Shown here: positions 16,832 through 52,484 of the stretch, piece by piece
Layout of the letters: the number at the start of each line of letters is the position of its first letter
How positions within the stretch are numbered: the first letter of the stretch is position 1
Assembly (NCBI GenBank): GCA_018829185.1
Contig: JAHJUI010000001.1
Span: forward strand, 1-56,337
Reading direction: 5' to 3'
DNA: 56,337 bases
From: Nanobdellota archaeon
GTDB lineage: Archaea > Nanobdellota > Nanobdellia > SCGC-AAA011-G17 > PNOQ01
The notes under the pieces: generated by a model
Seen by the model: the letters and a program-made list of their open reading frames with translations, nothing else
The model's database searches: none
Told to the model about the DNA's origin: nothing
Translations under genes and position numbers: made by a program

Positions 16832-17428
16832 ATGAAAAAAATATACTTAATATTCATAATAACTGTACTTCTTACAAATTTAATAGCAGCAAGCGAATGT
16901 TGTCCAGATTGTGAAACAAGTGTTAAAGTAACTGCAAAAATGCAAGAATTAGAAGTTTCGCATGATCACTCAGTATTATTAATCTATGGAAGAATAAAAA
17001 ACAAAGAATGTGCAGTAGCAGAAAATGTTTTCTTAAAATTAAATTATAAACCAAATGATTATGAAATGGGTCCAGAAATAACAGTTTTTCCTTTTGAAAT
17101 CCTTCCAATGGGTTATTTAATGCCATATGGATCAAGACCTTACTTTTTCATAGTTGAATTGGATCATTATTTCCCTTACGGTCCAGTAGAGCCTGGAGAT
17201 TCAATGGAAACTAAATTCTATGTATCAGCACACGGATCAAACTTCAATAAAGTAAAATCAAAAGTTATGAGTTTCATCCCAAAAGAAGAAGATACCCCCA
17301 TTGAAATAGAAGAAGAAATAATAGAAAAAGAACCTATTGAAGAAGAAACTAAAGAACCAATAAAAGAAACACCAATAAGCAAAACAATCGAAAAAGTAGA
17401 CTTAAACAAAGTAAAATTATTTAATTAA
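16832..17428 (+). CDS. secreted protein with Glu-rich C-terminus
   Basis: Signal peptide LIFIITVLLTNLIAASECCPDC. Confidence 0.65.
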   Translation: MKKIYLIFIITVLLTNLIAASECCPDCETSVKVTAKMQELEVSHDHSVLLIYGRIKNKECAVAENVFLKLNYKPNDYEMGPEITVFPFEILPMGYLMPYGSRPYFFIVELDHYFPYGPVEPGDSMETKFYVSAHGSNFNKVKSKVMSFIPKEEDTPIEIEEEIIEKEPIEEETKEPIKETPISKTIEKVDLNKVKLFN

Positions 17429-36363: not shown

Positions 36364-36397
36364 AAGTTTATAAGGAAAGAAGATAACCCCTTTTTAA

Positions 36398-36485
36398 GCC
36401 CTGATAGCTCAGGCAGTTAGAGCAGCAGATAAAAAAGCTGAATCTCGTAAACTGCAGGTCGAGGGTGCGAATCCCTCTCGGGGCT
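36398..36485 (+). tRNA. tRNA-Thr(CGU) with 14-nt intron at 30/31 (36429-36442)
   Basis: Acceptor GCCCTGA/TCGGGGC, anticodon loop CTCGTAA, T stem GAGGG/CCCTC, discriminator T; BHB CAGC/GCTG. Confidence 0.92.
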
Positions 36486-36495
36486 TTTTATTAAA

Positions 36496-37479
36496 ATGAC
36501 TAGAATCTATTTTAAAGAAGAAAAAGTAAGAAAAAAATTCTTTACAGATGTTTTAATCAATTCTAATTTCAAAACATGGAAAGAATTAAGAATTAATTTA
36601 AAGATTTCAAAAACCGCTTTAGAAAATTACAAAAATGGAAAATTAACTATACCTGGAGATTTTTATGAAAGTATTATTACCTTTTTACCTAAAAAATTAA
36701 AAGAAAGTTACAACACCCAAGTTTATTCAAAAAAAGACAACTGGGGGGCAATAGAAGGCGGAAAAAAAAATTATGAAAAAAACAAATGGATATTTGAGTT
36801 AGGTAGAAAAAAAGCATTGAAATCAATAAGAAAAATACACCAAATTTCTGATGCAGAAATAAACAAAAATTTCGAATTAGATTTTTATGAAGTTATAGGG
36901 GCATTTATTGGAGATGGATTTTTTAATAAATATGGGAGCTCTTACATTATTCAATTTGCGGGAGATTCAAGATATGATTTTGATTATTATAAAAATAAAA
37001 TTATCCCGGTGATATCTAGATTATTTGATAGAAAACCATTCATAAGGACAAAAGGAAACTGTATGTGGATTACATTTAATTCAAAAAAACTTTTTTATGT
37101 ACTAATAAAAAGATTTCATATGCCAAAAGGAAAAAAGGTTTACACTGTTAAAATCCCCGAGGAAATTTTAAAAGATAAGAATAAATTAATTTACACATTA
37201 AGGGGTATTTTTGATACAGATGGATGTATTTTTGTGGACAAAAGAAAAACTTACAAAAAACTTTATCCCAGAATAGCATTGCAATTAACTAATAAACCTA
37301 TTATAGAACAAATTTATCTTGCACTGAGCTCTTTAAATATAAAATGTGGTATATCAGAGAAAACAAGAGGTAACGCATATACAATCCAAATAAATGGTTT
37401 TAAAGAAGTAAAGAAATACATAGACACAATTGGTTTTTCAAACGAAAGACACCTTAATAGGATAAAACACTTTTCGTAA
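36496..37479 (+). CDS. LAGLIDADG homing endonuclease
   Basis: Two motifs VIGAFIGDGF and LRGIFDTDGCI. Confidence 0.93.
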   Translation: MTRIYFKEEKVRKKFFTDVLINSNFKTWKELRINLKISKTALENYKNGKLTIPGDFYESIITFLPKKLKESYNTQVYSKKDNWGAIEGGKKNYEKNKWIFELGRKKALKSIRKIHQISDAEINKNFELDFYEVIGAFIGDGFFNKYGSSYIIQFAGDSRYDFDYYKNKIIPVISRLFDRKPFIRTKGNCMWITFNSKKLFYVLIKRFHMPKGKKVYTVKIPEEILKDKNKLIYTLRGIFDTDGCIFVDKRKTYKKLYPRIALQLTNKPIIEQIYLALSSLNIKCGISEKTRGNAYTIQINGFKEVKKYIDTIGFSNERHLNRIKHFS

Positions 37480-38865: not shown

Positions 38866-38942
38866 ATTTTTTCTTTTTTTCTTTTTAATTAATTCTTAGA
38901 ATAAAAACTTTTATAAATCAACTCTTTCTCAGATTTTACTAT

Positions 38943-39139
38943 GTCGGGGTGCCGGAGTCTGGAAAAAATCTCCATGAGAAATTATGAGATATTCTAGCGG
39001 GCAGGTCCGGATTAACGAAAGGTGATCTGGTGCTAAACTTAAGTTTTCCAGGAAAAAAGAAATCCTGTGGCTTAGTGCCTACGAGGGATATCTAAACATT
39101 TGATTGTTGGATACTCGAATTCAAATCCCTTCCCCGACA
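38943..39139 (+). tRNA. tRNA-Leu(UAA) interrupted by four BHB introns
   Basis: Exons 38943-38966, 38998-39005, 39037-39043, 39062-39087, 39120-39139 give an 85-nt tRNA-Leu: GTCGGGG/CCCCGAC, CAGGA-CTTAAGA-TCCTG, GAGGG-TTCAAAT-CCCTT, A73. Confidence 0.8.
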
Positions 39140-39230
39140 TATTTTTTTCTTACACTGTGACAAAGTTATATAACTATAAAAAACCCAATTAGTTAATTTT
39201 AAAAATAAGTACATTATTGTAATTCTTATT

Positions 39231-51432: not shown

Positions 51433-52332
51433 ATGGATAAACAAATAATAAATGACTTTGTAGATTATACATCAACAAAACAAATAGCAAGGAAATATAA
51501 TTTAGATTTAAAATATATAAGGACGTTATTGATAAATCAACTAGGGAAAGAAAAGTATCTTAAAATTGCCCATACAATAGGGGCAAAAACTGTTTCTAAA
51601 AAATTGAAAGATCCCTCTTACAGAAAAAATTATTCTGAAAAAATGAGCAATTCTGTTTCAAAATCAATAAAACAAAAAATGAAAAATAAAAATTTTAAAG
51701 AAAAGTGGCTTAAGAAATCTAATGAAGCTTCTAAAAAAGGACTTTCTAAAATTAACTTTCTTTTAGAAACAAATGAAGAGTTTAGAAAAAATTGGGTTAA
51801 GAATTGTTCAAAAGGTGGAAATAAAACTTACAAACTTAAAAAAGGAGCATTTGATATAAATAATTTAGAAGCCAGAAAAGAAGGTTCATTAAGAGGTTTA
51901 CAAAACACTTGTAGAAACAAAATAGGCCCTAAAAATGAAAAAATGTATAATCATTTTGAAAAAAGCATAGCTAATTTAATATTAAAATCTGGATATAATT
52001 ATGAATATGAAATAATCTTCAAAGATAAAAATCCAAATGGATTCATAAGCTGTGATTTTAAGCTAATTGGAATAAAAAATGAAATATTGATTGAAGTAAC
52101 TTGCTGGGACAAATTCAAAGAAAAAGCAATTAGCCTAAACAAAAAATTTATTATTTTGAAAAAACAATTAAAAAACTTTGAATATATAGTGGTAGCGCCC
52201 ACTAAAAGATTTAGCGAACGTTATTCTGAATTTTTAAATCCAGAGATTAATTGCTTAAGTTATTATGAATTTAAGAATAGATTGAATATGATAGCGGGAG
52301 TCAGATTTGAACTGACGACCTCTGGGTTATGA
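51433..52332 (+). CDS. putative PD-(D/E)XK-like nuclease; 3' end runs antisense into tRNA-iMet
   Basis: SCDFKLIGIKNEILIEVTCWDK core-like pattern; Lys-rich helical N-terminus. Confidence 0.5.
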   Translation: MDKQIINDFVDYTSTKQIARKYNLDLKYIRTLLINQLGKEKYLKIAHTIGAKTVSKKLKDPSYRKNYSEKMSNSVSKSIKQKMKNKNFKEKWLKKSNEASKKGLSKINFLLETNEEFRKNWVKNCSKGGNKTYKLKKGAFDINNLEARKEGSLRGLQNTCRNKIGPKNEKMYNHFEKSIANLILKSGYNYEYEIIFKDKNPNGFISCDFKLIGIKNEILIEVTCWDKFKEKAISLNKKFIILKKQLKNFEYIVVAPTKRFSERYSEFLNPEINCLSYYEFKNRLNMIAGVRFELTTSGL

Positions 52333-52397
52333 GCCCAACGGGCACTCCTAGTTGGACATTTAGCTCAATGAAGGGCTAAATTCTGCCCCATCCCGCT
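52292..52397 (-). tRNA. initiator tRNA-Met(CAU) with 31-nt D-loop intron (52352-52382)
   Basis: A1-U72 AGCGGGA/TCCCGCT, GGG-CTCATAA-CCC, BHB GGGC/GTCC, intron hairpin ATTTAGC/GCTAAAT. Confidence 0.92.
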
Positions 52398-52484
52398 ACA
52401 ATTATGAAAAATTAGTCCTTTTTAAAGCTTTTTAAATCAAAAACTTTTTATACTTAAATTATTAAAAAATAGGGAGGTGATACA

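Follow-up and report, generated by a model that had tools for sequence, protein, structure and literature searches.

A probable four-intron tRNA-Leu(UAA) gene in a Nanobdellota archaeon

Introduction

Some archaeal tRNA genes contain more than one intron. In the Thermoproteales, a tRNA gene can carry several introns with bulge-helix-bulge (BHB) motifs, at canonical as well as non-canonical sites, and these are removed by the splicing enzyme EndA (Sugahara et al. 2008, as described in PMC4033280 and PMC8450103). The maximum number of introns per archaeal tRNA has been given as three (PMC4033280, 2014), as "two or three" (PMC6379350, 2019), and as "up to three" (PMC8450103, 2021). In three Asgard genomes (Atabeyarchaeia and Freyarchaeia), over half of the tRNA genes are described as having multiple introns, often at non-canonical sites (PMC11291895, 2024); the main text of that report states no maximum per gene, and four or more introns are possible there. 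Here we describe a gene for tRNA-Leu(UAA) that appears to contain four BHB introns. It lies on a contig of a Nanobdellota archaeon (JAHJUI010000001.1, from assembly GCA_018829185.1). We analyzed positions 1 to 56,337 of this contig, or 56,337 nucleotides (nt), which we will call the window.

Compared to the Thermoproteales, whose stated maximum is three introns, this gene has four and its counterpart in a relative (genome G073) has five. Also, the Thermoproteales have an (αβ)2 EndA with a loop that is specific to Crenarchaea, whereas here we found only a loop-less EndA of the α type. The Asgard archaea share the multi-intron tRNAs and the often non-canonical positions but belong to another lineage. 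Nanoarchaeum equitans and ARMAN are, like this organism, archaea with small genomes and relaxed BHB motifs, and the EndA that we found is nearest to the α subunit of N. equitans; however, we detected no β subunit or ε fusion, and the gene is cis-spliced rather than split.

An initial annotation of the window, made from the sequence alone, had placed four introns at or beyond the upper end of what is known, which agrees with the published maxima. It had also described multi-intron tRNAs as known mainly from the Thermoproteales. They are indeed known there, but "mainly" no longer holds, as they have been described in Asgard genomes and as genes with four introns recur in the order to which the window belongs. 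Our search of the open-access literature turned up no archaeal tRNA with four or more introns (subscription papers and supplements were outside its scope).

A tRNA-Leu(UAA) gene in five exons

The gene occupies positions 38943-39139 of the window on the forward strand (197 nt), and removing the four introns (18-32 nt each) leaves 85 nt. ARAGORN identifies the spliced 85-mer as tRNA-Leu(taa) with a complete cloverleaf: a 7-bp acceptor stem, a D arm, a 5-bp anticodon stem, the anticodon loop CUUAAGA, a long variable arm, a T arm, and A as the discriminator. The unspliced gene was invisible to both ARAGORN and Rfam when these were run on the window. From its sequence and from comparisons to relatives, we are confident that this locus serves as the working gene for tRNA-Leu(UAA) in this genome.

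Exon 1 (38943-38966, 24 nt) encodes positions 1-22 of the tRNA, which comprise the 5' strands of the acceptor stem and the D arm as well as the D loop. It is followed by intron 1 (38967-38997, 31 nt) at site 22/23 and by exon 2 (38998-39005, 8 nt), which encodes positions 23-30. Intron 2 (39006-39036, 31 nt) is at site 30/31, and exon 3 (39037-39043, 7 nt) encodes positions 31-37, including the anticodon UAA. Intron 3 (39044-39061, 18 nt) is at the canonical site 37/38. Exon 4 (39062-39087, 26 nt) encodes positions 38-53, including the long variable arm; intron 4 (39088-39119, 32 nt) is at site 53/54; and exon 5 (39120-39139, 20 nt) encodes positions 54-73, which comprise the T loop, the 3' strands, and the discriminator. 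By eye, there is a TATA-box-like element upstream of the gene (TTTTATAAAT, 38909-38918 on the forward strand), and a T tract right behind it (39140-39150, forward strand) might be a terminator.

A splice-aware alignment that was free to place introns returned these four introns and five exons at exactly the coordinates that the initial annotation had proposed. The textbook 85-nt product, the short second and third exons, and the BHB-type helices at all four introns were likewise as it had described them. It had placed intron 1 in the D loop proper; site 22/23 is instead at the edge between the D stem and the D loop. The alignment score of the gene is 142.5, compared to 57 for the best non-overlapping tile of the window (which is another tRNA), and none of 200 shuffled versions scored above 40. 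We ran the aligner with a term for the BHB motif; without this term, the D-arm introns of some relatives were split at the wrong place.

The exon boundaries can also be read from an orthologue that lacks introns. In a genome from another family of the same order (G026, NZBH01000053.1), the intronless orthologue (G026:C53:6824-6901) is 100% identical to nucleotides 4-81 of the mature tRNA in a single unbroken stretch. All five exons are supported by both this orthologue and the splice-aware alignment. For other orthologues without introns, identity to the mature tRNA is about 85-96%. Furthermore, none of the four junctions can slide without altering the mature sequence: in each case, the preceding exon and the intron end in different bases, and the intron and the following exon start with different ones.

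BHB motifs and the order of splicing

The central helices are GGAA/TTCT for intron 1, GGCA/TGCT for intron 2, CTTA/AAAG for intron 3, and CGAG/CTCG for intron 4, with 4/4, 4/4, 3/4, and 4/4 pairs, respectively, and each is flanked by 3-nt bulges. The inner helices of introns 2-4 have 4 to 8 pairs (6 to 8 bp for intron 2 and 7 bp for intron 4), and intron 1 has an inner helix of five pairs (ATCTC/GAGAT, identified by eye and with an offset of one nucleotide). The outer helices are more variable. Intron 1 has four pairs, of which two are G-U, and introns 2 and 4 have just one pair, so that they are relaxed and resemble bulge-helix-loop motifs. For intron 3, the outer helix grows from a single pair in the full precursor to six pairs after the other introns are removed.

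If these motifs are recognized as BHBs, then local folding of the pre-tRNA would produce, at every boundary between exon and intron, a 4-bp helix between 3-nt bulges; EndA would make eight cuts, one behind nucleotide 2 of each bulge; and the ligase RtcB would seal the exons (four joins). The introns would probably be excised in order. The 5' strand of the anticodon stem is taken up by the BHB of intron 2, and intron 3 gains its full outer helix only once the other introns, notably intron 2, have left; intron 2 is therefore expected to be removed ahead of intron 3. Introns 1 and 4 look independent.

Introns in tRNA-Leu(UAA) across the order

We spliced tRNA-Leu genes from about 100 relatives with the same program. 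Among the 65 genomes of the order with an identified tRNA-Leu(UAA) gene, there were no introns in 16, one in 12, two in 13, three in 14, four in 9, and five in 1. A small number of the low counts should be read with caution, as other leucine tRNAs and incomplete genes are among them. Thus, 10 of the 65 genomes, from several families, have four or more introns. Genes with four introns are present in G038 (a genome in a single contig), G040 (which has two copies), G044, G046, G066, G081, G083, and G093, and probably also in G018 and G045. The gene with five introns (L124, on G073:C47) is 258 nt long and has introns at 15/16, in the D loop, and at 30/31, 37/38, and 53/54. All five have three or more of their four central pairs (3/4 for the D-loop intron), and ARAGORN reads the spliced product as tRNA-Leu(taa).

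Farther out in the class, 22 genomes yielded just two genes with more than one intron. Other members of the window's own family have no introns or one, so the introns must have been gained, regained, or patchily retained. Together, the relatives form a natural series, from no introns to five in the same tRNA, for the study of intron gain, intron loss, and splicing order.

The sites recur: introns in the relatives are at 15/16, in the D loop, and at 22/23, 30/31, 37/38, 53/54, and 59/60. As for the four sites in the window, 22/23 is also used in G028 (L047), 30/31 is common to many relatives, 37/38 is used by most of the relatives that have introns, and 53/54 is used in G024, G039, and G073. 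At 53/54, these relatives have the central helix CGCA/TGCG instead of CGAG/CTCG. Similarly, at 15/16, the ends of the introns covary with the exon strand of the helix (CCGG/CCGG, CCAG/CTGG, CCCG/CGGG, and TCAG/CTGA). This covariation points to selection on the central helix. Our argument rests on these individual helices and not on the overall pairing of the central helices (0.916, versus a maximum of 0.886 when shuffled), as that comparison is biased: the candidates had been filtered to have at least 3/4 pairs, and the genes are related.

In five relatives from four families, the 3' splice site of the intron at 30/31 occurs a second time within that intron, along with a piece that resembles exon 3 (L124/L168 in G073, L123/L169 in G021, L043/L170 in G085, L172 in G018, and L171 in G045). 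TTGCYAA|ACTCAGA precedes TTGCYAA|ACTTAAG, and where the exon has CGCA, both copies have TGCG. One possibility is that the doubled site is used in recursive (tandem) splicing; another is that it brings in a mutually exclusive anticodon exon, with which the same gene would yield tRNA-Leu(CAG).

Another unusual locus is in G016 (contig C30, near 17211-17253 on the reverse strand; L041/L179), where tRNA-Leu(UAA) is represented by a 3' part that starts at the 22/23 junction (TTCTAG|CGGG), the same as for intron 1 in the window. This part is preceded by a LAGLIDADG-like open reading frame (ORF) of 267 amino acids. We did not find the 5' part in the 1.5 kb upstream or elsewhere; only a tRNA-Leu(CAA) turned up. 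Candidate explanations are a large intron that bears an endonuclease, a split tRNA, or an incomplete assembly.

Splicing enzymes

The genome encodes EndA (177 amino acids, contig C23) and the ligase RtcB (contig C13). This EndA is nearest in sequence to N. equitans α (3iey_A) and M. jannaschii α4 (1a79), and relative to the latter, it has only one-residue gaps in the region where a broad-specificity loop would be. No second EndA subunit was found in the genome down to E = 10, although a short and fast-evolving β subunit could escape this search. More broadly, 92 of the 99 genomes of the order (this one included) have a match to EndA, nearly always a single one and mostly in frames of 170-270 amino acids, and we found no β subunit or ε fusion in this genome or in nearly all of the 99 that we searched, with the caveat that a strongly diverged β could be missed.

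EndA of the α4 and α2 types is described as cleaving canonical BHBs only, and relaxed motifs are described as requiring an (αβ)2 or ε2 enzyme that carries a particular loop (PMC4033280, PMC6379350, PMC12397907). Across this order, an α-only, loop-less EndA might process tRNAs that have four or five introns, several of them with relaxed motifs, either because the homotetramer has broad specificity here or because an unrecognized partner acts with it. We consider this possible, if somewhat doubtful. If true, it would break the accepted rule for the co-evolution of EndA and introns. These genomes also put to a sharp test the idea that EndA type determines the introns that are open to a genome.

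An uncharacterized gene is near endA in all 7 of the genomes that we inspected and is directly after endA in at least 5 of them. In this genome it encodes 291 amino acids (L031, 565-1440, reverse strand; also L161-L166), and it has a conserved C-terminal domain. It had no match in Pfam, NCBIfam, or the PDB. We considered whether it is a diverged β subunit, but a profile comparison with EndA gave nothing. By position only, it is a candidate functional partner of EndA. A tRNase Z-like gene with the metallo-β-lactamase motif HLHGDH (L031, 2060-2950, forward strand) divergently adjoins endA.

Is this the gene in use?

UUA accounts for 794 of the 1,388 leucine codons (57%) in 44 ORFs of the window, so tRNA-Leu(UAA) is needed. 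The genome has 36 matches to RF00005, and the other leucine tRNAs that we recognized among them are UAG and CAA. The initial annotation had suggested looking for an intact tRNA-Leu(UAA) elsewhere: there is no second one among the 36 matches in this 96%-complete genome, and a search of the genome with the spliced 85-mer found, elsewhere, only weaker leucine tRNAs. Since UUA is so frequent and we found no other gene for this tRNA, this one must serve, and it can do so only after splicing.

Some observations weigh against a working gene with four introns. The genome (827 kb) is a draft in 27 contigs and is 96% complete; the central helix of intron 3 has a mismatch; and the sole EndA that we found is of the α type without the loop for relaxed motifs, yet introns 2 and 4 are nearly without an outer helix. 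The state of the genome leaves room for an intact tRNA-Leu(UAA) in the missing ~4%, in which case the locus could be a decayed and unused copy, and the type of EndA does predict that introns 2 and 4 would be cut poorly. However, all of the stems are intact, and the two acceptor-stem pairs that differ from the G026 orthologue have changed with compensation. A member of another family has an identical mature core, while a pseudogene would have drifted, and relatives also have 3-5 introns in this gene. A decayed copy is therefore very unlikely.

A working gene could also be joined differently, with fewer introns or with moved boundaries. For intron 1, the alternative helix CTGG/CTAG that the initial annotation had mentioned is present, and the D-loop intron of relatives is at slightly varying positions (22, 23, or 24 in their own index). 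But splicing at CTGG/CTAG would leave a product of 81 nt that lacks a proper D arm, and both the G026 orthologue, which fixes every join (GGAAAACGGGCAGGACTTAAGATCC), and the non-sliding junctions exclude this boundary, which makes different joins highly improbable. Because the genome is a metagenome-derived draft, we also considered a chimeric assembly, in which foreign pieces were put into an intronless gene. Yet the start and end of each insert fit exactly to form a BHB helix, and the identical sites are filled in many independent assemblies, including the single contig of G038, so the chance of a chimera is negligible. The inserts are not group I introns, as they are 18-32 nt while the catalytic core would require roughly 200 nt or more, and Rfam sees no intron in the window. 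Nor is this a split (trans-spliced) tRNA, as the five exons are in order within 197 nt.

Thus, this appears to be a gene of a known kind, a tRNA with BHB introns, that has one intron above the stated maximum and belongs to an order in which such an excess recurs. With it, the documented number of introns in a single archaeal tRNA gene would rise from three to four (or to five, in a relative), and extreme interruption would extend to a lineage of archaea with small genomes, probably DPANN as judged from its relatives and the size of its genome. Also, because a standard tRNA finder sees no gene here, the tRNAs that seem to be missing from genomes of this kind may not be lost but only hidden.

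Other interrupted tRNA genes

About a dozen other tRNA genes in this genome are interrupted by one or two introns, several of which are non-canonical, so the tRNA-Leu(UAA) gene sits in an intron-rich genome. There are introns near 30/31 in Lys(UUU), Trp, and Thr(CGU); two introns in Arg(CCU); a T-loop intron in Ala(UGC); and D-loop introns in Thr(UGU) and in a Met tRNA.

Two of these genes are in the window. tRNA-Thr(CGU) (36397-36486, forward strand) has a 14-nt non-canonical intron near 30/31. Just 10 nt after it is a LAGLIDADG ORF (36496-37479, forward strand; PF14528, E = 6e-9), and in G018, a LAGLIDADG-like ORF is directly upstream of tRNA-Leu (L172). The location of these ORFs beside tRNA genes hints that homing endonucleases are involved in the spread of tRNA introns. 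tRNA-Met(CAU) (about 52291-52399, reverse strand) has a D-loop intron of ~35 nt; it was below the Rfam cut-off and was missed by ARAGORN. Elsewhere in the genome, another tRNA (L028, G000:C18:6200-6323, reverse strand) has apparently two introns.
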